Origin: Zingiber officinale
Lineage: Eukaryota > Streptophyta > Magnoliopsida > Zingiberales > Zingiberaceae
Reading direction: 5' to 3'
Assembly: GCF_018446385.1 (NCBI RefSeq)
Contig: NC_055987.1
Coordinates: forward strand, 85,183,418-85,247,417
DNA length: 64,000 nt
Shown here: one piece after another, positions 14,354 to 32,589 of the stretch
Layout: each line of letters begins with the position of its first letter
Numbering within the stretch: the stretch's first letter is position 1
Position numbers and translations under genes: made by a program
The notes under the pieces: model-generated
Seen by the model: the letters and a program-made list of their open reading frames with translations, nothing else
What the model was told of the DNA's origin: nothing
Databases searched by the model: none

Positions 14354-16229
14354 TGTTGGGTCTTTCGGGCCGCGAAAACCGCTTTTTCGCGTCGCGGAAA
14401 CCCCGAAACCCCCGTCACCGGATCCATGTGAAGTAAAAATAAAAACAAAATTTACGAGTACTAGTTTCTTAGACTTAGTTCTAAACTAGATTTACAAGGA
14501 GAAAACCTTTTACTCTTGATGCGTGCCCTTTACGAATCCCGCTCGTCCAAGGAAATGCCAGATCTCGAGATCGTCAAGCGTACGATCCTCTAGAAGTATC
14601 CACACGAACAAATGGGTGGAGAAAAACTAAACAAAGGTGTGCGAGCACCCTTGATCAGTCACGGTAAGAGGAGGAGAGGGAGAGCAAGAAGAGAGAGCTA
14701 GGAAGAAGATGATGGAATAATGCTTTGAATGAAAAATGAATTCCCTTCATTCACAAAAGTGGCCGGCCACACATGTGTAACTCCTTCTCATTTAATGTGG
14801 CCGGCCACATTAAATTGAAAGGGAATTTGTAACCTCCATTAGGTGGCACACACATGTGCTAAACATGATGATGTGGCACATCATCATTGACCACTTAATG
14901 TCAACTCACAAGTGAGGTGGCAAATAGTCAAGTCAAACTTGACTCTTCCTCTTCCTCTCAAGTCAAGTCAAACTTGACTTAATCTCTCTCATGGTTGATC
15001 TAATCCAACCATTTAATTCAAGCCAATTTAATATAATGAATATAATTCATTTAATTAAATTGATTCAATGAGTCATAATCTAAATTAGACTCATTAAACA
15101 CATGAATCAATTTGAGTCCAACTCAATTAGCCCAATTATGATTACTCTTAATCTAATTTGATTCATCACATGAATATAATACTCTTGGTTCATCATATGA
15201 ACCTAATCTCCATCTAATTGTCCTTAGTGTGTGACCCTATAGGTTTTTGTAACGTTGGTAATGCCCCTAAACCCATTTAGGAGCATAAGTAATGAGCGGT
15301 ATTTAGAAACACATCATTACTACCCAAGTTACAAGAATGTTGAGATCCAACATCACCTTGTGACTACTAATTGTGACTCCTCACAATATATGACAAGTGT
15401 CCTTCTATCCTAGACATCTAAATTGATCAATGTGAGGCATAGACCGTGTCATCCTCTGACCAATCTAAATCTTGAACTCCAAGTAGACTCACTAAATCAA
15501 ATGAGCTCAATATCTCATATTGACTCATTTGGGCATGGTCATGCACTTCGTGGTCTCACTCTATCAAGAATATCGATGTCTCTCACGTCATATAGGAGGG
15601 ATAGATCTCATCTACATCACTCACATCCCTCTACATAATTCGTTACATACCTAGTAATCGCCTTTATAGTCCACCCAGTTACGGGTGACGTTTGACGAAA
15701 CCAAAGTACATAACTCCTTATGTAGGGATCCATGGTGACTTCAGGTCTAAGGACTAGTAGTCATACTAATAGCCACATGAGAAAGTATATGACACTCCTA
15801 TAACGATCCATGATACTTTTGTTGGAGCAATCCCAATGGTCCGTGCGACCATGTGTTTTGGTGTTTGGGCAAAGGGTTTAAGTTAGGTTCACCCTTGTAT
15901 TTGATATGTGTATTTGAGTTGTGCAGGTATGCAGGATACACATGTGACTCAGGTTGATGGCTTCGGGTCTGGTGAAGGATGGAGCATCTGAGGGACCATG
16001 GACAAGGCAGCGAGGACAAGGGCTGAGGGAAGCGACTTCGAGGCATACGCGAAGGATGGCATTGGGGACGAGCCGCGGGCTTGAATGCATCCGAGGGACG
16101 AGAGCCAAAGGAAGTAGGCTTGAAGGTAAAAGGTCAAAGCTGCAAAGGAAGCATCAAGTGAGTCATAAGGGTGAGGGTACGAGTGCACGAGAGATTGTAC
16201 TCGGAGTAAAATCCTAGTTTTTAGGGTTT

Positions 16230-16284
16230 TACTGTAGCAGTACTGTAGCGCTACTGTAGTAGTACTGTAGCGCTACTGTAGCAG
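16230..16284 (+). repeat. 11-bp repeat, five copies, in U3
   Basis: TACTGTAGNNN occurs five times at exactly 11-bp spacing (16230, 16241, 16252, 16263, 16274), alternating CAG, CGC and TAG endings so that GTAGCGCTAC palindromes form. It ends about 125 bp before the TATA box. The 3' LTR has none of it. Confidence 0.9.
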
Positions 16285-16353
16285 CGAACAGAATGTCTCT
16301 GTTCGTATGGAATCGAGCCGTTGGGATGTAACGGTCGAATTTCCACTGAGGGC

Positions 16354-16384
16354 AGTCGACTGCATGTTTTGGCAGTCGACTGGT
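16354..16384 (+). repeat. Paired AGTCGACT palindromes before the TATA box
   Basis: GGCAGTCGACTGC and GGCAGTCGACTGG are linked by ATGTTTT. The pair ends about 25 bp before the TATA box. The 3' LTR keeps only a damaged single copy (GCAGTCTACTGC). Confidence 0.85.
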
Positions 16385-16409
16385 AGGCGGGGTTTTCCAA
16401 CCCGTGGCC

Positions 16410-16416
16410 TATAAAA
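16410..16416 (+). promoter_or_regulatory. TATA box of the 5' LTR
   Basis: CCTATAAAACC, conserved at 20141-20147 in the 3' LTR; position and context suit the LTR promoter. Confidence 0.6.
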
Positions 16417-16820
16417 CCAAAGCTTGGGAGCTTGGTTTGAGTTGACGAAATTAGTGGTGGGTAACCTCTAATTAGTAGTCAACTAGTGCCCTAGCAATCC
16501 AAGTGTTCTTGATCGAGTTGTGGCGAGGTTTCTCCACCGACAAGGAGGATTGTGCTAGCCGGAGTTTGCCGGGGAGTAATCCACCGAAGGATCGGGATCG
16601 TCCACCTTATGGACAGCCGTGGAGTAGGAGCCCTAATCTCCGAACCACGTTAAACGGACGTGTATTGGTTTGCATTTCATTTCTTGTCTTCGTTTTAGTT
16701 TAGCTTGTTTGTTTTGTTTGTATTTCCGCTGCGCAAGCTAATAATAGTGTAGGAAGCAAGGATTTGGGGGTGCCGTCTATCCAACCCCCCTTCAAGCCGG
16801 CCGTCCGATCCCCAAACAAG

Positions 16821-16832
16821 TGGTATCAGAGC
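16821..16832 (+). other. Primer-binding site (initiator tRNA-Met)
   Basis: TGGTATCAGAGC, two bases after the LTR end, the standard plant PBS complementary to the 3' end of initiator methionine tRNA. Confidence 0.9.
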
Positions 16833-16873
16833 GAAGGCCGCTCTCCGTCGGACTAACCGCCGAGGAAGCAAAG

Positions 16874-18517
16874 ATGACCGGCTTGATAGATCCGCCAAAG
16901 TTCGAAGGAGGAAGCTTATGGGATATCACCTTTTGGATGGTGAAGATGAAGAACTTCTTCGAGACGGATTGGGACACAATAATGGTGGTGGAAGAGCCAT
17001 TTGAAGTCCCTAAAGATAAGAAGGGAAAAAGGCTCCGACCACGACATTGGACGGAAGAGCAAACCACACGATCGGAGGCAAATTCAAAGGTAATATCTAT
17101 ATTGATTGATATTTTGCCTAATCATGTGATAAATGGTGTAGGTGAGTATAAGAACGCCCACGAGTTGTGGAGCAAGGTGAAGATGGTTCTACAAGAAGAA
17201 CCTAAACCTACACAAGAGGACGAAGAACCCATTGAGATGGGTCTAGTTGCTCAAGTTGAAGAGGAGCAAACGGAAGTTGAGTCATGCTCAACTTCCAAGG
17301 AGGAGAAGGAGGATGAAGAAGCATCGTCAACATCCTCAAGGGTTGAAGAAGAATCCAAGACGGAGGAAGATGAGATCTTGGAGGTCAACCTAGTGAGCAC
17401 CTCCACCGAAGCAAAGTCAAAGGACCATATCATTTGCTTCGGTTACAATGAGAAGGGACACTACAAGAGTAGGTGTCCATTGGGTAAGAAGAAGGTAACT
17501 CCTAAACTCAATCAAGTTATTTTGAATACTAACATGGGTTGTAGGAATGAAGAAGTCCAAAGGAGGAGAATGTGCATTACATGCTTCACGTGTGGGGAGA
17601 AGGGCCACTACCACACAAAATGCCCCAAGAAGTGGGAAATCAAGAAGCTTGCGCATCTAAAGAAATGGGAGAAGAAGAGGAGCTCAAATCAAGGGGGAGC
17701 TTCAAGGGTAAGGGAGGTATACCCTAATTTGAAATGTAATTCAAATTCAAATTCTTATCTTCCCATGCATGCTAGGAGAAATAATGATTATCATTATGTA
17801 GCAATGGAAAATTTTGGATTTAGATATCATGATAGGAGTAGGGTAAATGTGGATCATAACCCTAGGAAATCTATGCATGATAAATTTAGAAATGATAGAC
17901 CTAAGGAGACCCAAGGCATTAATCCCAAGAAGGGGAGACACATGCCTAGAAAGGGTAGGTCTAGGAATGTCCATGGTGGACATGTTGACTCTAGGGTTAG
18001 GAACCTAGAGAGGGAGAATCAAGCTTTGAAGTTAAAGCTTGATAATTTGGAGAAATTCCTTAAGAGATTCACTATTGGATCTAAAGGATTAAATATGGTG
18101 TTGGGTAGTCAAAGACCCAATAATGATAGATCGGGTTTGGGATACCAATCTAGTCCCTCCAAGGTCAAAAGGAGACCATGTGCTAGGGTGGCACATGATC
18201 ATGGCAAGAGAGAGTCCTCCAAAGCTAAGGGAAAGTCTTATGCTAGGGTTGCATATGACTATAGCAAGGAGAAGCCAATAAATGGCAAGGGAAAACCATT
18301 TAATGGTAAGGAGAAATTAACCAAGGACAAAGTGTCCAAGGTTAAGAAAGTTAGATTTGTAGGCCAAGTTTCACCGGGGGTGGACCGATGTGGCCTAGCC
18401 ATTGTGGATGAGTCACCTAGGGAGGTGACTAAGGTTAAGAGCTCTAGGGGGAGCTCAAAGAGTCAATTTGGGACCCATGGCCAATGGATCTCAAGGGGGT
18501 TTTACTTGGGAGTCTAG
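16874..18517 (+). CDS. Gag polyprotein of the gag-only element (547 aa)
   Basis: An uninterrupted frame from the first ATG after the PBS; an upstream GTG in frame overlaps the PBS and is unlikely. The N-terminal part (PPKFEGGSLWDITFWMVKMK) is a Copia-type Gag start. An acidic Glu/Ser-rich stretch follows at residues 115-180. Two CCHC knuckles, CFGYNEKGHYKSRC and CFTCGEKGHYHTKC, come next; the first has tyrosine for its second cysteine. Then a basic region, a short coiled-coil-like segment (NLERENQALKLKLDNLEKFL) and repeated KGK-rich units. Gag would form the particle and bind RNA. There is no pol downstream, so the stop is the natural end. The intact frame in a non-autonomous element suggests Gag is useful in cis. 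Confidence 0.85.
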   Translation: MTGLIDPPKFEGGSLWDITFWMVKMKNFFETDWDTIMVVEEPFEVPKDKKGKRLRPRHWTEEQTTRSEANSKVISILIDILPNHVINGVGEYKNAHELWSKVKMVLQEEPKPTQEDEEPIEMGLVAQVEEEQTEVESCSTSKEEKEDEEASSTSSRVEEESKTEEDEILEVNLVSTSTEAKSKDHIICFGYNEKGHYKSRCPLGKKKVTPKLNQVILNTNMGCRNEEVQRRRMCITCFTCGEKGHYHTKCPKKWEIKKLAHLKKWEKKRSSNQGGASRVREVYPNLKCNSNSNSYLPMHARRNNDYHYVAMENFGFRYHDRSRVNVDHNPRKSMHDKFRNDRPKETQGINPKKGRHMPRKGRSRNVHGGHVDSRVRNLERENQALKLKLDNLEKFLKRFTIGSKGLNMVLGSQRPNNDRSGLGYQSSPSKVKRRPCARVAHDHGKRESSKAKGKSYARVAYDYSKEKPINGKGKPFNGKEKLTKDKVSKVKKVRFVGQVSPGVDRCGLAIVDESPREVTKVKSSRGSSKSQFGTHGQWISRGFYLGV

Positions 18518-19544
18518 ATAAGCCATGGAATGTGCCAAGTGGTTTGGAGACGGACTTGAGTCTCAAACCTAGGGTTTTGGCACAATTAGTTTATGTTTCA
18601 TGCAAGAAATATGACAATTGGGGTCATATAGCATGAAAATTGATTTTGGATGTATAAATGCCATATAAACCAATGCTAGGGATGCATTGTGGGTTAATAT
18701 AGACAAATACATCAAGAGGAAGCCAAAACTAGGACTTTAGGTCAAGGTTCAATTGAACTTTTTAGCTAGTTTTGAGTTTTGTGTCAATCTTGGGATTGGT
18801 GATAGATACATTTTTGAATGTATTTTTCCCAAGTAGACATAAAACAGACCTCTCCACAAAATTTGGAGATTTTTGGAGGTCTGTGGAATTATTGTGCATT
18901 TCTGAAATTGGGTGAAATCTTGAAAAGGTGCGATCGACTACTAGTTTTAGCGATCGCATCATTGCTAAAGTTGCAATGATCGCTAAGCATTCTGTCGCTC
19001 ACCAGATGTGACCGCACTTCTTGCGATCGATACGATCTGAAATTGTTTTCGATGGATTTTGACCAAGTCAACTCATACAAGTGTATGAAATCCATGGGGG
19101 ATAAACACACGAGTTTAGGGTCAATTGGAATGACAAGTTTTCAACAATTGGGATATTGTTGGAGGACCTTTTGGATGTTAGGCAAAGGGGGAGAAGTAAG
19201 GTTTAGTTGGGAAAACCTGAAAGTGCCTTTGCATAGGGGGAGCCTTGGGATAGGTTCTTAAAAAGCCCGTTGTAAAAATCCTAGCTCATGGGGAGCGTAG
19301 GTGTAGGGGGAGCCTTGGGATAGGTTCCAATGCATGATGCACCATTCGGCGGTTGCCAAGTGTGTAACCTTGGCAACGTAAGTCCATTCGGCGTTGTAAG
19401 TCCAAGTGTGTAGCCTTGGCATCGTAAGACCAATTCGGCGGAGTAAGTCCAAGTGTGTAGCCTTGGCATCGTAAGTCCATTGTATGTATTAGCATGTTTA
19501 TTTGCTATTTGTTTTCCCTAACTTAAACGTATTGCCAAACACCA
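18518..19544 (+). other. Non-coding 3' region of the gag-only element
   Basis: No pol similarity. 18928-19035 holds GCGATCG-type palindromes (TTTTAGCGATCGCATC) like those in the 3' LTR. The phrase GGGGGAGCCTTGGGATAGGT occurs twice (about 19237 and 19305). Confidence 0.6.
19340..19490 (+). repeat. Imperfect tandem repeat before the polypurine tract
   Basis: Units built on AAGTCCAAGTGTGTAGCCTT and GGCATCGTAAGTCCATT recur about three times with small changes (GGCAACG for GGCATCG, CATTCGGCG linkers). Confidence 0.75.
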
Positions 19545-19557
19545 AAAAGGGGGAGAT
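19545..19557 (+). other. Polypurine tract
   Basis: AAAAAGGGGGAGAT immediately before the 3' LTR. Confidence 0.85.
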
Positions 19558-20548
19558 TGTTGGAGCAATCCCAATGGTCCGTGCGACCATGTGTTTTGGT
19601 GTTTGGGCAAAGGGTTTAAGTTAGGTTCACCCTTGTATTTGATATGTGTATTTGAGTTGTGCAGGTATGCAGGATACACATGTGACTCAGGTTGATGGCT
19701 TCAGGTCTGGTGAAGGATGGAGTATCTGAGGGACCATGGACAAGGCAGCGAGGACAAGGGCCGAGGGAAGCGACTTCGAGGCATACGCGAAGAATGGCAT
19801 TGGGGACGAGCCGTGGGCTTGAATGCATCCTAGGGACGAGAGCCAAAGGAAGTAGGCTTGAAGGTAAAAGGTCAAAGCTGCAAAGGAAGCATCAAGTGAG
19901 TCATAAGGGTGAGGGTACGAGTGCACGAGAGATTGTACTCGGAGTAAAATCCTAGTTTTTAGGGTTTCTACCGTAGCAAGATCTTAGTGATCATTGCATG
20001 TTTTAGCGATCGGTAGTGCGATCGGCCGATCGCGCAGAATGTCTGTCAGATGGAATCGAGCCGTTGGGATGTAACGGTCAAATTTCCACAGAGGGCAGTC
20101 TACTGCATGATTGGTAGGCGGGGTTTTCCAACCCGTGGCCTATAAAACCAAAGCTTGGGAGCTTGGTTTGAGTTGACGAAATTAGTGGTGGGTAACCTCT
20201 AATTAGTAGTCAACTAGTGCCCTAGCAATCCAAGTGTTCTTGATCGAGTTGTGGCGAGGTTTCTCCACCGACAAGGAGGATTGTGCTAGCCGGAGTTTGC
20301 CGGGGAGTAATCCACCGAAGGATCGGGATCGTCCACCTTACGGACAGCCGTGGAGTAGGAGCCCTAATCTCCGAACCACGTTAAACGGACGTGTATTGGT
20401 TTGCATTTCATTTCTTGTCTTCGTTTTAGTTTAGCTTGTTTGTTTTGTTTGTATTTCCGCTGCGCAAGCTAATAATAGTGTAGGAAGCAAGGATTTGGGG
20501 GTGCCGTCTATCCAACCCCCCTTCAAGCCGGCCATCCGATCCCCAACA
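19558..20548 (+). repeat. 3' LTR of the gag-only element
   Basis: It matches 15820-16818 except for the cassette. In place of the 11-bp array it has TAGTGATCATTGC, ATGTTTTAGCGATCGG and the perfect 16-bp palindrome GCGATCGGCCGATCGC (20018-20033). It ends CCCCAACA, followed by the target duplication. Confidence 0.92.
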
Positions 20549-20934: not shown

Positions 20935-21834
20935 GATTGGTCCTAAGCTAATCAGTTAGGAGGTTCTTGCGAGAACACATAAAGGACCCGAATCGATTGA
21001 TAAATCGATTAGGGCCGCTCCAATCGATTAGGATGGATTTCTAATCGATTGGGAGCTTCATGAAGAGAAATCGCAAAAACAATGGCTGAATCGATTAACC
21101 TAATCGATTCAGCCACATCTAATCGATTGCGTCAATCAATTAGACAATGTTTTTATTGCGAGAAAGAGAATCGATTGAGGCAATCAATTAAGACCATGCT
21201 AATCGATTGCGATAATCGATTAAGGTCTTTCGTGAGAGAACAGAGAGTTTGGGAATTGATTGGGTAATCGATTAAGACTTTCTGAATCGATTGAGATGAC
21301 TCACCAATCGACTGGGGTTCGAAAAAAGAGTTGTTTTACAGGTTGTTGGATGGTTGAATGACATGACAATATATTAGATAGGGAAAAGCCTAATCGATTA
21401 GAGGCGTTGAGTGAACCCTAGAAAAGGGTTTTCGTGAGGGTTTAAAGGAAATCTCTCTCGCACACTCTCTGCCAGTCTTAAGCCCTTGGAAGACAAGTAT
21501 TACTATACTTTCTAATGATCAAGAGACATCTGCAAGATACAAGAGATCAAGCAATGTGTTTATTGTATTATGTATTTATTTCTTTGTTGTATTTTTTTAT
21601 TGTGAGCTTGTACGAGGTTTCGACACCTTCGGATTATTTCTGAGAATGAGTGTTTTTCATAATAGAGTGTATGCACTGTGTGGATCTTTAGATTAATCAC
21701 CTCAAGGAGGTGGATACCAAGTAAATACGGGTATTAGCATTGCTTCGAGTTTTTCTGATATAACAAATCAATAAGACGAAGCTATTGGAGCTAATCATCC
21801 CCCCCTCTCCCCCAGCTCCCAGAGTCTCCTAACA
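20935..21834 (+). mobile_element. Copia-type LTR, right part
   Basis: It continues from 14353. It carries the AATCGATT cluster, then GAGCTTGTACGAGGTTTCGACACC and AATCACCTCAAGGAGGTGG, and probably ends at CTCCTAACA (21834). No PBS follows, so internal sequence is missing or the LTR is solo. Confidence 0.5.
20991..21399. repeat. AATCGATT cluster, 13 perfect copies
   Basis: By my count 13 perfect AATCGATT palindromes lie in about 410 bp, plus near copies (AATCAATT, AATCGACT). Spacing is irregular and flanks are unrelated, so it is not a simple tandem array. Chance expectation is far below one. Confidence 0.85.
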
Positions 21835-22434: not shown

Positions 22435-22837
22435 TGTTGGGCGTTATACTTGGCAGACGAAAGGGTTCGTCCCTTTCGCTGCTGCAAACGCCAGGGAGAC
22501 GAAGGGGCGTCCTTTCCCCTTCGTCTTCCTTAGCCTTCTTATAAGAGGCGTCCAAGTGCAGATCGAGAGAGAGAGAGCTTTTAGCGAGGTGATCAGGGAG
22601 CATCGAGAGATCGTGGGAGAGCAAAGGGAGAGCATTCGGCTGGGATTTGGTTCGTGAACTTTGAAGCACTTTCCGGTTGCTCCGTGATCGTGCTTCCGAC
22701 AGCGGCAACCTCTTCGTCGACCGCCGGCGTCTTCGGTTGCGGTTCTTCGGGAGATCACTGTGAGTGTTTATAATTACCGCATCGTTTTATTTTATCTTTG
22801 TATTGTTTTAGTTTTCATGCTCTCAAAACTACCAACA
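22435..22837 (+). repeat. 5' LTR of the Copia element
   Basis: TGTTGGGCGTTATAC to AAAACTACCAACA. A TATA-like TATAAGAG lies at 22540-22547. A strong splice-donor word GTGAGT starts at 22760. Confidence 0.95.
22540..22547 (+). promoter_or_regulatory. TATA-like box
   Basis: CTTATAAGAGG, about 105 bp into the LTR, repeated in the 3' LTR; a plausible promoter giving a short U3. Confidence 0.45.
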
Positions 22838-22838
22838 A

Positions 22839-22850
22839 TGGTATCAGAGC
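22839..22850 (+). other. Primer-binding site (initiator tRNA-Met)
   Basis: TGGTATCAGAGC one base after the LTR. Confidence 0.92.
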
Positions 22851-22951
22851 ATGTATAGTTTTGACAGTATGGAAATCGACGCGAAAAAGCTCGCGTTTTT
22901 TCTTCTTCTGTCGCGAAGAAGAAGATGAACAGTAACACTGTTCATCGATTG

Positions 22952-23211
22952 AATCGATTGATTAATCGATTCAAAATCGCGAACAGTGCACAATTTTTGT
23001 TTGTTTTAATCGTTTGTTCAATCGATTCAAATATTTGAATCGATTGATAAAGAATTGAATCGATTCAATTGATGACACAGTGCCTTACTGAATCGATTCA
23101 CGAATCGATTAAAGAAAAAAAAATGCATGAACAGTGTCATTTTACGAAGCACAGTGAGTTACGTTTATTTTCTTGCACTTGAATCGATTCAAGAGCAGGC
23201 ATGAATCGATT
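22952..23211. repeat. AATCGATT cluster, nine perfect copies, in the leader
   Basis: Nine perfect AATCGATT by my count, most as TTGAATCGATTC, interspersed with GAACAGTG/CACTGT words. Unlike the clusters at 805 and 20991, this one lies in transcribed leader RNA downstream of the PBS. Confidence 0.85.
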
Positions 23212-24027
23212 CAAGAAGAAAAAAAAGGAAAACATAAACAGTACTTTTGATCAAGCACTGTAACAAAAAACGTGAAAAAAAAAATGCATGCATGTTTTTT
23301 TTTCTTTCTTCTTCACGTACATGCACAGTAGAGATTAATTAAATATATTTATTAATTAAATAAATACATAAGAAATGTATTATTGATTAATAAATAAATA
23401 TATTTAATTAATTTATGGTTCAATTTATCAAAAATGGAACCAGACCAACTTGTCCAATCAAACCCCGGTCTGGTTTAAATTATTAGTTAATTTAAGCAGA
23501 CCAATTTGATTCAATAATATATAAAGCTGGTTCAAATTATTTGTTGGTTTAACCAGCTCAGTTTATTATTGAATTAATAAGGGTGATCTTGACTACAGAA
23601 GTTGGGCTGATCAAATATGACCGGATTAGTTTCGTTGTGTCAAAATTTGATCAGAAACATTAGATTTGTTCTAATGATTCAGACTTAATCCAATGGGCAT
23701 TGGATAAATCAAACGGACCTGAGTTTGATTAATAAGTCTGTGATTGACTCAAATGAGCTTAAACGAAAACAGAACATAGGTCCAATTAGATTAGTTCTAA
23801 TGAGGACAATAGATTAAGCTTAAGATTCGGATTCATGATCAACCAATCCAATGTGTCAGTCACATGAGACTCCCCAAAATAAGGAAATTTGTTTTTCTTA
23901 ATTGCTTGTGTATACTGTATATTTTGTTCTATATGTAGGAATTGAATTTGACCGGTTTTGTACTGGTCAGTCGGTTTTGTACTGACATCATGTTTTTCAA
24001 TTCCAGATACAAAGAACGATATACACG

Positions 24028-24690
24028 ATGACTGGTCGCTATGAACGACAACATGAGCTGTGGGAGGAGATCAAAAAGCTAGAATATGACCCGGATCACG
24101 GAGTCGGTAGGCTTATTGGTCAGCTCGATTGGTTGTTCTGGAATCTCGAGCAAGAAGGGTATCCAGTTCAGGAAACAGAAAGAAGATTTTCTCTGGTTTA
24201 TTCATTATCGGAACATCTGAGGCAGATAGCATTCCAACTTTGGGATGATTCTGATGGGCACATCTCATACTCAGAGATGTGCAGACAACTACTTCATCTG
24301 CAATGGGGTCCTGATGAATCTGAAGAGGATCCAGAAATGGAGTCTGAAGATTTAGAGGAGGATCCAAATCCTATAGAATCTGAAGATGATCCTGAAATGA
24401 ACCTTGAAGAATTTGAAGAGGATCCAGAAATGGATCCTGAAGATTCTGAGGAAGATCCAGAGATTGATTCCGAGGACGATCCAGAGATGGATCCTGAGGA
24501 AGATCTAGAGATGGATCCCGAAGGATCAGAGGAGGATCCTCAGGAGTGTGTAGAAGATCCAGAGATGGATCTGATGGATACATCTGAGGCTGATCCACCT
24601 ATCATAGAATCTAGGATGAACGGGATGCAATTACCCACTGCTCTAGCATTTATCCTAGTGGGAGTAGTGCTAGCTTATCTAGTTTATTAG
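24028..24690 (+). CDS. Extra ORF: Gag-like, acidic, tail-anchored protein (220 aa)
   Basis: An intact frame between leader and gag, same strand. Residues 26-92 align with residues about 132-197 of this element's Gag with one gap: matching hydrophobic spacing, GY at 44-45, SL at 59-60. So it resembles the capsid C-terminal region. Residues 95-190 are an acidic repeat of EEDPEMDPE-like units. Residues 203-220 (PTALAFILVGVVLAYLVY) are hydrophobic and reach the C-terminus, as in tail-anchored membrane proteins; there is no signal peptide. It is not in gag's frame (384 nt separate them). Role unknown; particle docking to a membrane or a copy-number control decoy are inferences. A captured host gene is the less likely alternative. 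Confidence 0.85.
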   Translation: MTGRYERQHELWEEIKKLEYDPDHGVGRLIGQLDWLFWNLEQEGYPVQETERRFSLVYSLSEHLRQIAFQLWDDSDGHISYSEMCRQLLHLQWGPDESEEDPEMESEDLEEDPNPIESEDDPEMNLEEFEEDPEMDPEDSEEDPEIDSEDDPEMDPEEDLEMDPEGSEEDPQECVEDPEMDLMDTSEADPPIIESRMNGMQLPTALAFILVGVVLAYLVY

Positions 24691-25074
24691 TGTTCTGTTT
24701 GCTGTCGTTATGTACGAGCAGTGTTAGCTCGTTTAGATTTTGAGTCATGTAATAATTTCTGTTGTTTTGTACGAACAGAATTATATAATAAAAGTTATGT
24801 TATATGTTAACTAACTTGGAAATGATTAGTTCATTTCATGATATGATTAGTTCATATAAATATGATTCGTTCATATAAAATGATTTGTTCATTAGTTGGG
24901 ATATGTGTAATATAATTGATCAGTGTTGATTAGATTAGAACATACAAATGATGAGTGGAAACAATGTTATCACTTGATTTTGTAAACTAACTCTAATTTA
25001 CACTGAGTCAATAAATAGTTGCACATATATGAATTACACTGAAATAATAAATAATTTGTTTATTTATGTAGATC

Positions 25075-25915
25075 ATGACAACTAAAAACATCATAGCTGA
25101 ACTCAATAGGGGTGAGAAATTATATGGGGATAACTACAAAATCTGGCACCTCAAGATACAATATGTTCTTGAGGAACAAGAAGTTCTTGAGGCTGTAAAC
25201 CAAATCATGGAGGAACCGGTTGATGGTTCCACAGCACAGCACAGACGTGACCTTGATGCCTATAAGGCATGGAAAAGGAAGGACTCCATTGCTAAGGGTA
25301 TATTGATTAGTTCAATGGTGGATGACCTGGTATTTGAGTATGAGCCATTACCATCGGCTCATGCCGTCTGGGTAGCCCTTAGAGAGAAGTACAGTGGAGT
25401 CAGTCTGAGTAAGCTCCGTCAGCTAACTATCAAGTTTGATAGTTGTAAGAAGCGCTCGAATGTTACCATGGCCCAACATCTCAGGGAGATGGGTAACATG
25501 ATTCGAGAGCTGAAGACTGCAGGTTATACGTTGACCGATGAATAGCAGGTTCAGGCAGTTATCCGTTCCCTTCCTGATTCTTGGGAAACGATGAAACAGA
25601 ACCTGACCCATAGTGAGAGTATCAAGACTTTCACTGATGTCTCACGCCATGTGGAACTTGAGGCGGAGAGGATTGAATCCGCAAGGATTTCGAGTCAAGC
25701 TTTTGTAGCTGAAGGTTCTGGTTCCAAGAATAAGAACAAGTTGTTCAAGAAAGGAAAGGGGAAAGGAAAGGAGATTAATGTTGTTGCTGCGAAAAACCAA
25801 ATCAAGAAGAAAGGAAAGAAAAATGGACAAAAACCTAGGAGCAAGTTGACATGCTTCAACTGTGGCAAGAAGGGTCATTTTGCTCGGGATTGTACTGAGC
25901 CTAAAAAGGTAAAAA
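25075..25915 (+). pseudogene. Gag of the Copia element, one premature stop
   Basis: It starts MTTKNIIAELNRGEKLYGDN at an ATG 3 nt after the 3' splice-site-like TTTATTTATGTAG. It is a Copia Gag (UBN2-type) with YKIWHLKIQYVLEE, the capsid region and a CCHC knuckle CFNCGKKGHFARDC at 25852-25893. A TAG at 25543-25545 interrupts the frame after residue 156, where CAG would continue it; the frame is otherwise open to the knuckle and beyond. Gag would build the particle. Confidence 0.9.
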
Positions 25916-27042
25916 CAATTTTGTCTTCTTTCCACGAGCAATATGTTGCAAGTACAGTGTTGTTAGCTGATTCGTATCCTTTGTGGATTGTAGATTCAGG
26001 AGCAACGAATCACGTAGCTCGTGATCGAGCTACATATGTGGAGTACCGTCGGGTACCAGCTGACAACCAATGGATATATGTAGGAAACAATGCAAGAATA
26101 GAAGTCAAAGGAATTGGCACTTGCAAGCTCAACCTACGTGGTGGAGGCACCTTGTTTCTACATGATGTCTTGTACGCTCCTGAGATTCGACGGAATCTGG
26201 TTTCCGTCATTTGTCTTCTAGATTTAGGTTACAATGTAAATTTTTATAGCCGTTGTGTGGAACTTTGAATTAACTCTGTGTTAATTGGATATGGTTATGT
26301 AACAAATGGTTTTATGGTTCTTGATGTAGAACCAAATAATAATAGTTGTTTTTCAAACATTGCTCTTACTAGTAATGCTGATGTAAATGATGAAATTTGG
26401 CATACTAGATTGGGACATATAGGACAAGAACGAATGAATAGATTAGCTAAGGAGAGCCTCTTAGGTACTCATGCTAAGATTAACTTGTCTATATGTGAGC
26501 ATTGTCTTATTGGAAAGACGACTAGGAAACTATTTGGTAAGGATATTAGGGTTGAATCACCATTGCAATTAATTCATTCGGATATTTGTGGTCCAATGAA
26601 TGTGAAGGTTAGAAATGGGAGTTCTTATTTCATTCCATTTATCGATGACTTCACACGTTTTAGTCATGTGTATTTGATTTCTCACAAATCTGAAGCATTA
26701 GATTACTTTATTCATTACATGAACGCAGTTGAGAATCAATTGGAACGTAAGGTTAAAACCTTGCGCACTGACCGTGGAGGAGAATATTTGTCTGATCAGT
26801 TCAAGACAATGTGTAATGAAAAAGGGATTATTAGACAACTAACTATCCCTGGAACTCCACAGCAAAATGGGGTTGCTGAAAGAAGAAATAGGACTCTTCT
26901 TGAAATGGTTAGGTCTATGATGGCGCAGGCTAATTTACCAATCTCCTATTGGGGAGATGCATTATTAGTTGCGACCTATATACTTAACAAAGTGCCTTCA
27001 AAACCAGTTCCATCTACCCCACATGAACGTTGGCGGATCTGA
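25916..27042 (+). pseudogene. Protease and integrase of the Copia element
   Basis: In frame with gag. WIVDSGATNHVARD (DSGA, 25993-26004) is the Copia protease site. A TGA at 26266-26268 breaks the frame. Next come the integrase zinc region (WHTRLGH, then CEHCLIGKT) and core with HSDICGP, RTDRGGEY and NGVAERRNRTLLE, so all three catalytic acidic residues are present. The frame ends at 27042 through a frameshift near 27035. Confidence 0.9.
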
Positions 27043-29049
27043 GTAATCTGAGACCTTGGGGGTCAGCTGCCTACGTTCATGATAAGACTCACGAATATGG
27101 AAAACTAGGACCCAGAGGTAAGAAGTGTATCTTTATAAGGTACTCTGAGACCTCTAAGGGTTATGTTTTTATTGGTGAGCGACAAGATGGAACCATCTCT
27201 GAGATAGAGTCAAGAGATGCTACTTTTCTAGAAACTGAGTTCCCAACACGAGGTGAAGTTGATAAGACAATTCCTTTATATGAGATAGAGGAGGAGGATA
27301 ATGTTCCTTTATCAACAAATCAGGAGATGCCTGAATCTAGTCAACCGAGTGGGAGTAATTTGCCACTGAATGAGTCAGTTTCTCAACAGTCAAACCTTCG
27401 AAGAAGTAATCGTCAGATTATTCCTCGGAGAAGGTTTGATATTGAGAATGAGGCATTAATGGTTCTCCCAGTTGACGATGAGGAACCTCGAACAGTTGAG
27501 GAAGCTATGAGCAGCTCAGTCAGAAAAGAATGGAAAGTTGCAATGGATGAAGAAATGGAGTCAATGAGAAAGAATCAAGTTTGGGATTTAGTCGATCTTC
27601 CTCCGGGCCGAAGGGCTATTGGGAATAAGTGGATTCTCAAAGTAAAGAGGAAAGCAGATGGATCGATTAATCGATACAAAGCTCGATTGGTTGCAAAAGG
27701 ATATACCCAAATGGAGGGTATTGACTTTGAAGAGACATTCTCCCCAGTTGTGAAGTTTGTGTCAATACGTGTCATCCTAGCTATAGTAGCACACTATGAC
27801 ATGAAATTACATCAGATGGATGTAAAAACGACTTTCCTTAATGGTAATCTTGACGAAGAAATCTATATGGTACAACCAGAAGGTTATATTGCTGAAGGCC
27901 AAGAGAAAAGAGTATGTAGACTTCGGAAGTCTATATATGGGCTAAAGCAAGCGTCAAGACAATGGAACATAAGATTTAATGAAGTAATATTATCTTATGG
28001 TTTCGAAATGATCAATGAAGATCATTGTGTTTACCTAAGAAAGGAAAAAAGGAAAGCTTGTCATTTTATCATTATATGTTGATGATATGCTAATAGCTGG
28101 AAGTGACATAAAGAGTGTGATAGAAGTTAAAAGTTGGCTTTCATCACAATTTGACATAATAGATATGGGAGAAGCAGAGTACATCTTAGGAGTGAAGATC
28201 GTTAGAGACCGATCAAAGAGGCTTTTGGGTTTGTCTCAAGAAGCTTATATCACTAAGATGCTGCAACACTTCAATATGTCAGATTGTAATATTGAACAGA
28301 CGCCTATTGCAAAAGGTACTGTTTTGAGCAAAAGTATGTATCTCAAGACTCCTGAGGAAATAGCCGAAATGAAGAAGAAACCATATGCCAGTGCTATTGG
28401 TAGTTTGATGTACACTATGTTGTGTACTCGTCCCGATATAAGTTATGTTGTTGGCTTAGTTAGTCGTTTCCAGTCAAACCCAGGATCGAGACACTGGAAA
28501 GCGGTGAAGAGGATATTTAGATATCTTAAAGGAACAGCTGATTATTGCCTCTGTTTCCAAGGATCATATATGAGCCTAAGTGGCTACTCAGATGAAGATT
28601 GGGCAGGGGACCTTGATGACAGAAAATCCACATCTAGCTATGTCTTCTTGCTGAATGATGGCGCCATCTCATGGAACAGCAAGAAGCAGGCTTGTGTAGC
28701 CTTGTCGACAATGGAAGCTGAGTATGTGGCTTGTGCAGCGGCTGTGCAAGAGGCTGTTTGGCTAAGAAGGTTCCTGAAGCATCTGAGAATTGCTGAGGAT
28801 AGTGGGAGTCCTGTTACAGTGTACTGTAACTGTCAAGCTGCAATAGCTTTTTCCAAGGATCCCAAATATCACAGCAAAGGCAAGCATATAGAAATTAAGT
28901 ATAATTTTGTAAGGGATATTGTTGACAAGAAAAAGATTATTCTTGAGTACATCCCTACACGGAATATGCTTGCTGATCCTTTTACTAAGCCATTGACTAA
29001 AGAGTCATTTCATGGGTATATGAAGTCTTTGGGACTTCGGAGAATGTAA
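27030..29049 (+). pseudogene. Reverse transcriptase and RNase H of the Copia element
   Basis: The first stretch (27030-28082) runs from the integrase tail (LRPWGSAAYVH) into RT: NKWILKVKRKADGSINRYKA, RLVAKGYTQ, QMDVKTTFLNGNLDEEIYM. A frameshift near 28065 falls just before the catalytic YVDDM (28075-28089). The second stretch (28087-29049) has the RT end and RNase H (GYSDEDWAGDLDDRKSTS, STMEAEYVA) and ends naturally in SLGLRRM. Frame damage means no working polymerase from this copy. Confidence 0.9.
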
Positions 29050-30293
29050 CAATTGTAAAGACATTTTGATAAATGAAAATTTCCATGATCTATTCAGTGT
29101 ATATGTCTTGGTTACATTCGAATAAAAGTCTCGATAAGCATGTTGGCAGATTGGGATTGGTCCACTCACATGGACAATCATCTCTATTTGTTGAGTACGA
29201 ATAGAGGTAAGACCGTTGCTTATGGGACAACTTTTGTAGCTGTGAATAGAGACATACCCATAAGTTAAGGTCGCCTTGATATTTGTGTCAAGATGAGATC
29301 ATTTGTGTAATGATTAGAGTAAATGCACCCACCATTTACTAAATCTGCTTGAAGCCAGATTAGAATTCATATGTTGAATTCAGGATTAGACATTAGGAAT
29401 GTCTAGATCATAATCTGTACGATGTTAAAATTAGGATAAACATGCGCTCTTTTTGGTAAAGAGAATAACATCGTAGCATGTGATTCATACCACATGTGCT
29501 ATGGCGACAAGAAGGGTTGTAGGAGAATGGATCCCTGCTTTTCTACTATGTGAGACCCTTGAGATTATAAGTTAATCTCGATTTTACCCTAAGTGACTAT
29601 TTAGCTGTCTACTTGAAGTTCTGATCAGTGTCTGCTACTTTAGCATGTTTCCTATTGGCTATGGATGATTCGGTCTATGGAGCATAACTAGGAAAGCAAC
29701 TGATTAGAGTGAATGGATTCTAGCTAAAAAGGAAGATTAAGATTTATTTACATCTGCGACATTTATTCACTGGTACCGGTTACATTTTTAGTTCAGTACA
29801 TAAAATGTAATTGTGAATAATTTGTTTGATTGGAGGTGTTGAACATGCTCTTGACATATGGTCAATATGAGGGATTAGAGATGTTCATGATGATATAAAT
29901 AATTTAATCTGGGGTAAAGGCAAGCCATTTATGTCTTTGATTCGTTCTATGGACATTTATGTCTCTGACTTGTTCTATGGAGCAGCTAAGTAAGGTGTGA
30001 CAATCTTCTTAGCAATTGAATGCTCACTGTGCTTGCTGTCGCACGAACCATTTTCCCTAATGTATGGAATGGATGTTCTGATCTGGTCTTTGTGACTTGA
30101 TCCTCATAAAGTCTGTGTGACTTATTTGGTCTTTGTGACTAAATTTTGCTCTGGTCTTCGTGACTTGATCCTCATAAAGTCTTCGTGACTTATTTGGTCT
30201 TTGTGACAAATTTCGCTCCGGTCTTCGTGACTTGATCACCTTGTAGTCTATGTGACAGACATAGTCTATGTGACCATATGGATTGACTTGAAC
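29050..30293 (+). other. Non-coding 3' region of the Copia element
   Basis: No open frame of interest; the reverse-strand frames are chance. It ends with the repeat at 30084-30280. Confidence 0.6.
30084..30280 (+). repeat. 67-69 bp tandem repeat of GTCTTYGTGACTT words
   Basis: Copies start at 30084, 30153 and 30220; the last is partial. Each is itself made of three GGTCTTTGTGACTT-like words separated by GATCCTCATAAA and ATTT(T)GCTC. It lies just before the polypurine tract. Confidence 0.85.
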
Positions 30294-30303: not shown

Positions 30304-30706
30304 TGTTGGGCGTTATACTTGGCAGACGAAAGGGTTCGTCCCTTTCGCTGCTGCAAACGCCAGGGAGACGAAGGGGCGTCCTTTCCCCTTCGTCTTCCTT
30401 AGCCTTCTTATAAGAGGCGTCCAAGTGCAGATCGAGAGAGAGAGAGCTTTTAGCGAGGTGATCAGGGAGCATCGAGAGATCGTGGGAGAGCAAAGGGAGA
30501 GCATTCGGCTGGGATTTGGTTCGTGAACGTTGAAGCACTTTCCGGTTGCTCCGTGGTCGTGCTTCCGACAGCGGCAACCTCTTCGTCGACCGCCCGCGTC
30601 TTCGGTTGCGGTTCTTCGGGAGATCACTGTGAGTGTTTATAATTACCGCATCGTTTTATTTTATCTTTGTATTATTTTAGTTTTCATGCTCTCAAAACTA
30701 CCAACA
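30304..30706 (+). repeat. 3' LTR of the Copia element
   Basis: Same length as the 5' LTR with about four substitutions, for example GAACTTTGAAG against GAACGTTGAAG. Confidence 0.95.
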
Positions 30707-31363: not shown

Positions 31364-32589
31364 TTACCTAGCACAATTTTGTGACCACATGAGCTCCTTC
31401 TCATAGCTATAATTCCTAGAATTTCCTTGACTTATGTGATTCATCAATTCTGAGGAAGATTGAGATGACATAGTGAGTAAACATTCAATTTCCTCGTTGC
31501 CTTCTGGTATACAATCTCCTTTCCTTTTCATTCTAGTCTTTCTCATACTTTGCAATTTATACTCAACTTCCTTCATTGAAGGCCTTTTTGCACCTTTCAA
31601 ACTCAAGCATGTTTCTATCAAACTACTTATTTCAAGAAACTCTGGCTCTGTCCCTTCTTGCAAAACACGTTCTTCTACCAAATCAAACAATGTGTTCTCT
31701 CTTTTTGCTTGAAAGAAATTCATTGCTAGATTTTGTTGTGACTCAATATTAGTTGAGTATATAGGCTTCTTTCCTGTTAAAAGTTCAAGAAGAATAATTC
31801 CAAAGCTATAGACATCACTTTTCTCTGTCAACTGACTAGTTTGATAATACTCCAGATCCAAGTACCCAAAGGTACCGTGTATGGCAGTAGTTATATGTGT
31901 TTGATCAAGAGGAATAAATCTTGATGCTCCAAAGTCTGATACCTTCGCCTTAAATGTATCATCTAAAAGAATATTTGATGACTTCACATCCCTATGGAAA
32001 ATAGATATAGAAGCCGCTGAGTGTAAATAGGCAAGTGCTCCGACAGATTCTGTGGCAATTCTAAGACGATCATCCCAGGATAATTTGGATTCACCTTGTG
32101 AAACATGAAGATGATCTGAAAGGGTCCCATTGGAGATAAATTCATAAACCAACAAAGGAACTTCAGTTTCTAAACAACATCCAAAAAGCTTAACTACGTT
32201 TCTATGATTGATTTGAGAAAGAACCGCAACCTCATTTATGAATTGATCAATCTCACTTTTTTTAACAGTTTTTGACTTTTTTATGGCAACAACTCGTTGA
32301 TATGATAGAATCCCTTTGTAAACAGTACCATGTCCTCTCCTTCCAAGTATTCGAGTTTCATCAAAATTGTTTGTTGCCTTTTCTATCTCTTCCAAAGAAA
32401 ATATAGTTGTTCTCTCATCAACATGGTCACTTGTAGAGATTAATTGTTGAAGCAGTAAACCATGATTTTGATGAAAATTCCTTTGTCTGATTTTCTTTAG
32501 ATTTCTTTGCTTCCATTTCTTTCCTACGATGACCAATGTTACACAGAGGAGCAAGAGACTTGTTCCAATGCTAGCACCAAGGATGACAC
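31364..32589 (-). CDS. WAK-like exon 4: transmembrane and kinase domains
   Basis: The exon opens with GVILGASIGTSLLLLCVTLV, the membrane segment, then a basic juxtamembrane stretch. Kinase landmarks: LGRRGHGTVYKG loop, VAIKKSK lysine, FHRDVKSSNILLDD, SDFGASR, GTFGYLDLEYY, SDVYSFGIILLELLTGKKP. Compared with the usual WAK loop the second glycine is arginine, and the usual proline in DPEY is leucine. Catalytic Lys, HRD and DFG are intact. Whether it is active is uncertain. Confidence 0.88.

Follow-up and report, generated by a model that had tools for sequence, protein, structure and literature searches.

An Extra Open Reading Frame Upstream of gag in a Young Copia Element of Zingiber officinale Encodes a Polyanionic Protein with a Predicted C-Terminal Membrane Anchor

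A Young Copia Element and Its gag-pol

The window analyzed here, that is, the whole 64,000-nucleotide stretch of DNA, contains a young Ty1/copia LTR retrotransposon (Table 1). A repeat comparison of the window delineates two LTRs with TG..CA ends and only 4 differences over 403 bp, and the sequence CCAAG is present on either flank of the element as a target duplication. The primer-binding site is presumably of the tRNA-Met type. Along the element, the Pfam families Retrotran_gag_2, rve, and RVT_2 follow one another in this order, with the integrase before the reverse transcriptase, as is characteristic of Copia. In Gag, a polybasic stretch (25723–25872) that runs up to and into the zinc knuckle has a net charge of +18 in 50 aa. 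As a sequence-only reading of this DNA had stated, gag-pol is broken: in-frame stop codons are found at 25543 and 26266, and the reading frame shifts at about 27040 and 28080. Three copies of a ~68-nt tandem repeat immediately precede the 3′ LTR (30076–30278).

Table 1. Features of the Copia element, numbered from the first nucleotide of the window. Splice-site ranks were obtained with approximate matrices; a slash marks the exon–intron boundary.
Feature	Position	Strand	Remarks
5′ LTR	22435..22837	+	403 bp, TGTTGG...CCAACA, 4 differences from the 3′ LTR
TATA-like TATAA in 5′ LTR	22540	+	
Alternative LTR donor GAG/GTGATC	22589	+	rank 2 of 135 GT sites
Candidate 5′ splice donor ACT/GTGAGT in LTR	22760..22765	+	weak, rank 13 of 135 GT sites
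AT-rich leader, putative intron	22765..24006	+	31% GC
Primer-binding site TGGTATCAGAGC	22839..22850	+	directly 3′ of the 5′ LTR
Candidate 3′ splice acceptor ttcaattccag/ATAC	24005..24006	+	rank 4 of 150 AG sites; 21 nt before the ORF ATG
Extra ORF, 220 aa	24028..24690	+	between primer-binding site and gag
N-terminal domain, residues 1–97	24028..24318	+	five predicted helices, pLDDT 63.5
Acidic EEDPEMDPE-type repeat, residues 98–192	24319..24603	+	51 D/E, 0 K/R
C-terminal hydrophobic segment, residues 202–220	24631..24687	+	predicted tail anchor, no tail after it; hydropathy only
TTGTA (24767) with AATAAA (24787), resembling a poly(A) signal	24767..24792	+	77 and 97 nt 3′ of the ORF stop codon
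Candidate 3′ splice acceptor gtttatttatgtag/ATCATG	25070..25071	+	rank 2 of 150 AG sites; 3 nt before the gag ATG
Disrupted gag and first part of pol	25075..26268	+	Retrotran_gag_2, CCHC knuckle, polybasic stretch
Integrase, reverse transcriptase, and rest of pol, in pieces	26278..29049	+	order integrase–reverse transcriptase = Copia
3′ LTR	30304..30706	+	

Layout of the Extra Open Reading Frame

The interval from the primer-binding site to gag spans 2.2 kb, and its single long ORF is intact from its ATG, as had been reported. It is read in the sense direction inside the element and upstream of gag-pol, which is the position of an eORF-5′F. No second copy of this ORF was found within the 64-kb window, and all the evidence on it given below comes from one element copy. 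When the stretch between the primer-binding site and gag was simulated 2000 times as a first-order Markov sequence, the longest ORF obtained was 148 aa, and none (0/2000) was as long as the real one of 220 aa. The sequence-only reading had also set the intact ORF against the broken gag-pol of the same copy. The contrast exists, but we reject it as evidence because the divergence of the LTRs predicts only ~3.3 substitutions in 663 nt, with a probability of ~0.84 (indels left out) that none of them is a nonsense change.

Three parts can be distinguished in the encoded protein, and the layout proposed earlier, a Gag-capsid paralogue followed by an acidic repeat and a membrane tail, is upheld for the ORF, the repeat, and the anchor-like tail but not for the Gag-capsid half. 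The acidic repeat is as described, its 95 residues having a net charge of −51, and Tandem Repeats Finder reports a 33-bp array of 4.8 copies (152 bp) in the ORF. The hydrophobic C-terminal end is likewise real: its mean Kyte–Doolittle value of 2.27 is that of the protein's top 19-residue window, the best of the other windows (starts 1–180) reaching 0.45. Among the 264 stop-to-stop ORFs of at least 60 aa in the window, three have a comparable end, the extra ORF included, and 6 of 5000 random open 19-mers reach 2.27. With a single C-terminal hydrophobic segment and no other predicted membrane segment, the predicted layout is that of a tail-anchored protein.

Is the N-Terminal Domain a Copy of the Gag Capsid?

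Could the extra ORF be a piece of Gag that has been turned against the element? The yeast Ty1 protein p22 (PMC8458377, PMC4599808) offers such a model, in which the N-terminal domain would descend from the C-terminal domain of the capsid and, having diverged, would interfere with the assembly of particles. Both Ty1 and the present element are of the Copia type, and the five helices predicted here would make the domain all-helical, as is p18m with its helices named up to alpha5 (PMC8458377). Furthermore, the register in which the match to Gag residues 132–197 had been claimed (offset 106) is indeed among the best ungapped ones, with a score of 16–17 over 40 residues, and the GY and SL positions coincide in it.

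The match itself, however, did not survive comparison with shuffled sequences, the similarity being at shuffle level. The best 40-residue ungapped score was equaled by 293 of 1000 shuffled ORFs against a 300-residue Gag stretch and by 112 of 1000 against Gag 120–210. Over windows of 20, 30, 40, and 50 residues and the two Gag stretches, between 75 and 677 of 1000 shuffles did as well, and the lowest of these eight counts, 75, was obtained with the 50-residue window against Gag 120–210. Similarly, gapped local alignment against three Gag stretches was matched by 223, 144, and 187 of 500 shuffles, and BLASTP against Gag 1–156, which extends up to the first stop only, gave an E value of 0.45 in a different register.

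A profile comparison with gag families, named in the sequence-only reading as a check and run by us with Pfam, pointed the same way. Neither the whole extra ORF nor two pieces of its N-terminal domain matched any gag family at E ≤10 (the filters of the search drop most matches above ~0.1), whereas a 68-residue Gag stretch, with its stop written as X, was recognized as Retrotran_gag_2 at an E value of 9.6e−12; a Gag query of 70 residues, taken from the second half alone, gave no match. At the sequence level, paralogy of the extra ORF with Gag is accordingly rejected. The structure comparison suggested in the sequence-only reading was uninformative with single sequences: the model of the N-terminal domain has a pLDDT of 63.5, and a fold search with it returned no usable match, but the real Gag piece did even less well and failed to fold, with a pLDDT of 41.6. 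Searched by sequence against the PDB, this Gag piece matched the Drosophila Copia particle protein (E 4.9e−5 and 1.7e−4); a higher score on IcmE (E 3.2e−7, residues 108–155) is taken as spurious.

In addition, Ty1 p22 is a part of Gag made from an internal transcript, whereas the extra ORF has no detectable similarity to Gag and adds a repeat and an anchor. We regard a Gag-derived self-restriction factor as very unlikely.

Other Relatives of the N-Terminal Domain

A different origin would be the capture of a host sequence, in which the N-terminal domain came from a plant gene, perhaps one for an EF-hand protein, and was later fused to the repeat and the anchor. Residues 66–90 weakly resemble an EF-hand helix–loop–helix (Pfam EF-hand_1, E 0.022, 0.03, and 0.091 with three queries), and the predicted helix 55–74, loop, and helix 81–92 are compatible with such a motif. 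The score, however, is 14.7 bits at best, below the Pfam cut-off of 25.4, and the calcium loop appears by eye to be one residue short. A sequence search of the domain against the PDB gave only three matches at E ≤10, two to pentatricopeptide repeat proteins (E 0.014 and 0.092) and one to calmodulin-like protein 5 (E 0.045); since the better of the two pentatricopeptide repeat proteins outscores calmodulin-like protein 5 there, a match at the level of the EF-hand is near chance. Capture of a host gene thus appears unlikely.

No relatives were found in PHROGs at E ≤1, in a viral sequence collection queried with the extra ORF, gag, the reverse transcriptase, and its core, or in a prokaryotic contig collection queried with the extra ORF and the reverse transcriptase core. 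These empty searches are expected since the collections hold viruses and prokaryotes.

Purifying Selection on the Acidic Repeat

The internal repeat allows the ORF to be compared with itself, and we aligned its copies as DNA, ignoring codons, within the one element copy. The best alignment contains 35 mismatches, distributed 4/7/24 over codon positions 1/2/3, and gaps of 3, 9, and 3 nt. The third-position excess has a binomial p of 2.2e−5, and neutral evolution simulated without stop codons under three transition biases did not once reach 24 third-position changes in 4000 runs per bias. With 54 codon pairs compared (2 gap-split codons left out), the NG86 method gave a dN of 0.13, a dS of 1.48, and a ratio of 0.09, and LWL85 gave a dN of 0.11, a dS of 0.60, and a ratio of 0.18, with dS perhaps near saturation. 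Read in the two remaining frames, this alignment gave NG86 ratios of 1.25 and 0.97 (47 and 41 pairs, those holding a stop left out). In a non-coding control, the repeat upstream of the 3′ LTR, the mismatches were distributed 7/5/8 in one comparison, which has a 1-nt gap, and 7/5/4 in another.

A third-position excess is also seen in an overlapping second alignment of the acidic repeat (12/15/28, p 0.005, gaps of 9 and 3 nt) but not in two shorter ones (3/7/8, three gaps of 1 nt; 4/10/8). Because of the codon-position pattern and the frame-keeping gaps of the best alignment, we conclude that selection acted on the acidic repeat at the protein level. It was under purifying selection, with a dN/dS of 0.09–0.18, and this selection could predate the acquisition of the ORF by the element.

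A Splicing Model for Expression

How might an ORF in this position be translated? With the transcription start assumed from the TATA-like site, no ATG occurs downstream of that site in 22560–22764, 26 occur in the leader (22765–24009), and none occurs between the acceptor at 24005–24006 and the ATG of the ORF. Because of the 26 leader ATGs, ribosomes scanning an unspliced RNA would hardly get to the ORF or to gag. The GC content is 0.56 in the LTR stretch, 0.31 in the leader, 0.44 in the ORF, 0.26 in the spacer that follows it, and 0.44 in gag; plant introns show a comparable contrast with exons (PMC3735527). A branch-like CTGAC starts ~25 nt before the first exon base at the 24005–24006 acceptor; none was detected ahead of the gag acceptor. 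The highest scores went to an acceptor at 23939 and a donor at 23966, both of which lie elsewhere in the leader. Together, the composition, the upstream ATGs, and the acceptor-like sites suggest that the ORF is expressed by alternative splicing from the LTR, from a donor that is weak.

In the model that we propose, joining of the ATG-free LTR exon to the 24005–24006 acceptor would yield a spliced RNA that makes the extra protein, and a further splice that uses the acceptor in front of gag would yield the Gag-Pol mRNA. The unspliced RNA would be the sole form keeping the primer-binding site and hence the genome; because the proposed splices remove that site, spliced RNA would serve as messenger and unspliced RNA as genome. 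The AATAAA at 24787, together with the TTGTA at 24767, might terminate a short RNA carrying the ORF only, but the AATAAA is a weak signal because chance alone would give 0.66 such hexamers in the DNA that separates the ORF from gag.

Alternatively, the ORF could be a cis-acting upstream ORF that throttles the translation of gag, or its coding potential could be incidental to the leader RNA. On an unspliced RNA it does lie upstream of gag, in the company of many further upstream ATGs. The codon-level selection on the repeat and the step in GC content from 31% to 44% at the ORF speak against it, and we consider this explanation improbable.

The proposed division of RNA pools by splicing has parallels among plant Copia elements in BARE1 (PMC3735527) and EVD (PMC8892269). 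In both, splicing serves Gag output: that of BARE1 removes an intron of 104 nt from the end of gag, and that of EVD is coupled to a short GAG RNA, together with premature polyadenylation. Unlike in either element, the introns proposed here are in the leader, and their use would decide whether an accessory protein or Gag is made.

Several further features of the noncoding parts were observed. The 27-nt segment between the best acceptor and the best donor (23939–23965) is a possible mini-exon. The spacer between the ORF and gag contains a short tandem array (24822–24892) with a 19-bp unit in 3.7 copies. By eye, motifs of the AATCGATT type are dense in the leader (22930–23240) and in the DNA upstream of the element (20980–21400), and comparison of the window with itself reveals inverted matches within the leader.

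Proposed Role of the Extra Protein

What could a polyanionic protein with a hydrophobic end do for a retrotransposon? In tail-anchored proteins, the presence or absence of a basic tail after the anchor bears on the choice of membrane. The anchor predicted here ends at the stop codon, and the protein would consequently be inserted post-translationally, with its remainder in the cytosol; because no basic tail follows, the membranes of the ER and secretory pathway are likelier targets than mitochondria. Membrane insertion is a prediction supported by this layout. As to Gag, we infer, and propose as such, that the protein binds and docks it. The acidic repeat would contact the basic nucleocapsid region of Gag, which would thereby be held or chaperoned at the membrane, or the anchored protein may keep the basic region of Gag from stray RNA. 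Opposite charges alone (−51 for the repeat, +18 for the Gag stretch) are no proof of binding. The idea of a membrane dock for particles, raised by the earlier reading, still stands to the extent that the charges and the hydrophobic end suggest it.

Our tentative preference, which falls short of even confidence, is that the ORF is a genuine Copia accessory gene and not a Gag copy, and that it encodes a helical domain, a polyanionic repeat, and an anchor, is expressed by splicing, and may hold Gag at the membrane. Retroelement accessory proteins often act in RNA silencing, in the stress response, or in nuclear entry, and a membrane-held acidic domain might belong to a regulator of this kind. Such a role draws on these general functions of accessory proteins; the analyzed sequence offers no positive evidence for it, and we give it little credence.

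Comparison with Known Extra Genes

The proteins of Gag-Pol are regarded as sufficient for the transposition of LTR elements, and the extra ORFs of plant LTR elements are most frequently located downstream of pol, ahead of the 3′ LTR, as stated by Vicient and Casacuberta 2020 (PMC7264820). In Copia, an eORF-3′F is the mark of the SIRE clade according to Neumann et al. 2019 (PMC6317226). The extra ORF described here has in common with the plant eORF-5′F and aORFs treated in these two papers that it is a sense ORF outside gag-pol with no known domain. The 2019 survey set a minimum of 250 codons and left out ORFs located in tandem repeats (three monomers or more, over 150 bp; PMC6317226). The present ORF, 220 codons long and containing 4.8 copies of a 33-bp unit over 152 bp, falls outside this rule on both counts and would have been missed; a survey with such a length threshold and repeat filter would overlook genes of this type.

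The nearest parallel that we found for the position and the predicted membrane nature is sORF2 of the Drosophila MDG1 group (412, Stalker2), which likewise encodes a transmembrane protein in the sense direction upstream of gag (PMC11952523). In that work, sORF2 sits with capsids at soma–oocyte contacts, and a role in capsid transfer has been proposed. Could the plant protein be an envelope-like factor acting in cell-to-cell transfer in the same manner? The place upstream of gag, the sense strand, and the single transmembrane segment, predicted in our case, are common to both. The differences, however, are considerable. The elements that carry sORF2 are of the Ty3/gypsy type, and the protein, of ~70 aa, has a central membrane segment, a polybasic tail, and, in 4/6 cases, an N-myristoylation motif; its long RNAs gave no sign of splicing (PMC11952523). 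The extra protein is about three times as long, starts with MTGRYE and thus without an MGxxxS/T motif, and ends with its hydrophobic segment; it shows none of these sORF2/FAST-like features, as its anchor is at the extreme C-terminus with no polybasic segment after it. Plant cells are, moreover, walled. The chance that the protein is a transfer factor is slim.

Returning to the accessory gene that we favor, a broader form of the proposal is that a polyanionic, tail-anchored protein made from spliced RNA is conserved in a plant Copia lineage, docks the Gag particles of its own element on a cell membrane, and is a functional counterpart of the insect sORF2 with an independent origin. Judged from the sequence of a single copy, this broader form is doubtful. 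Extra ORFs in plant LTR elements are already known; for a membrane-targeted gene upstream of gag in plant Copia elements, as predicted here, we found no earlier description, and no plant Copia protein of such a layout was found in the literature searched, outside of which most subscription papers lie. If the proposal is true, some plant Copia elements actively manage the location of their particles, and a neglected question becomes testable, namely whether the particles of plant retroelements use membranes to assemble, hide, or move.

Other Features of the Window

A second LTR-like pair lies upstream of the Copia element, within 15819–16677 and 19557–20408, and its repeat pieces are 94–99% identical. 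Between the two repeats, a 565-aa ORF (16820–18517) contains a CCHC knuckle, and no pol was found among the ORFs of at least 90 aa. The stretch 15819–20408 looks like a gag-only, non-autonomous element. Downstream of the Copia element, a 396-aa ORF on the minus strand (31364–32554) looks, by eye and from its motifs, like a receptor-like kinase domain.
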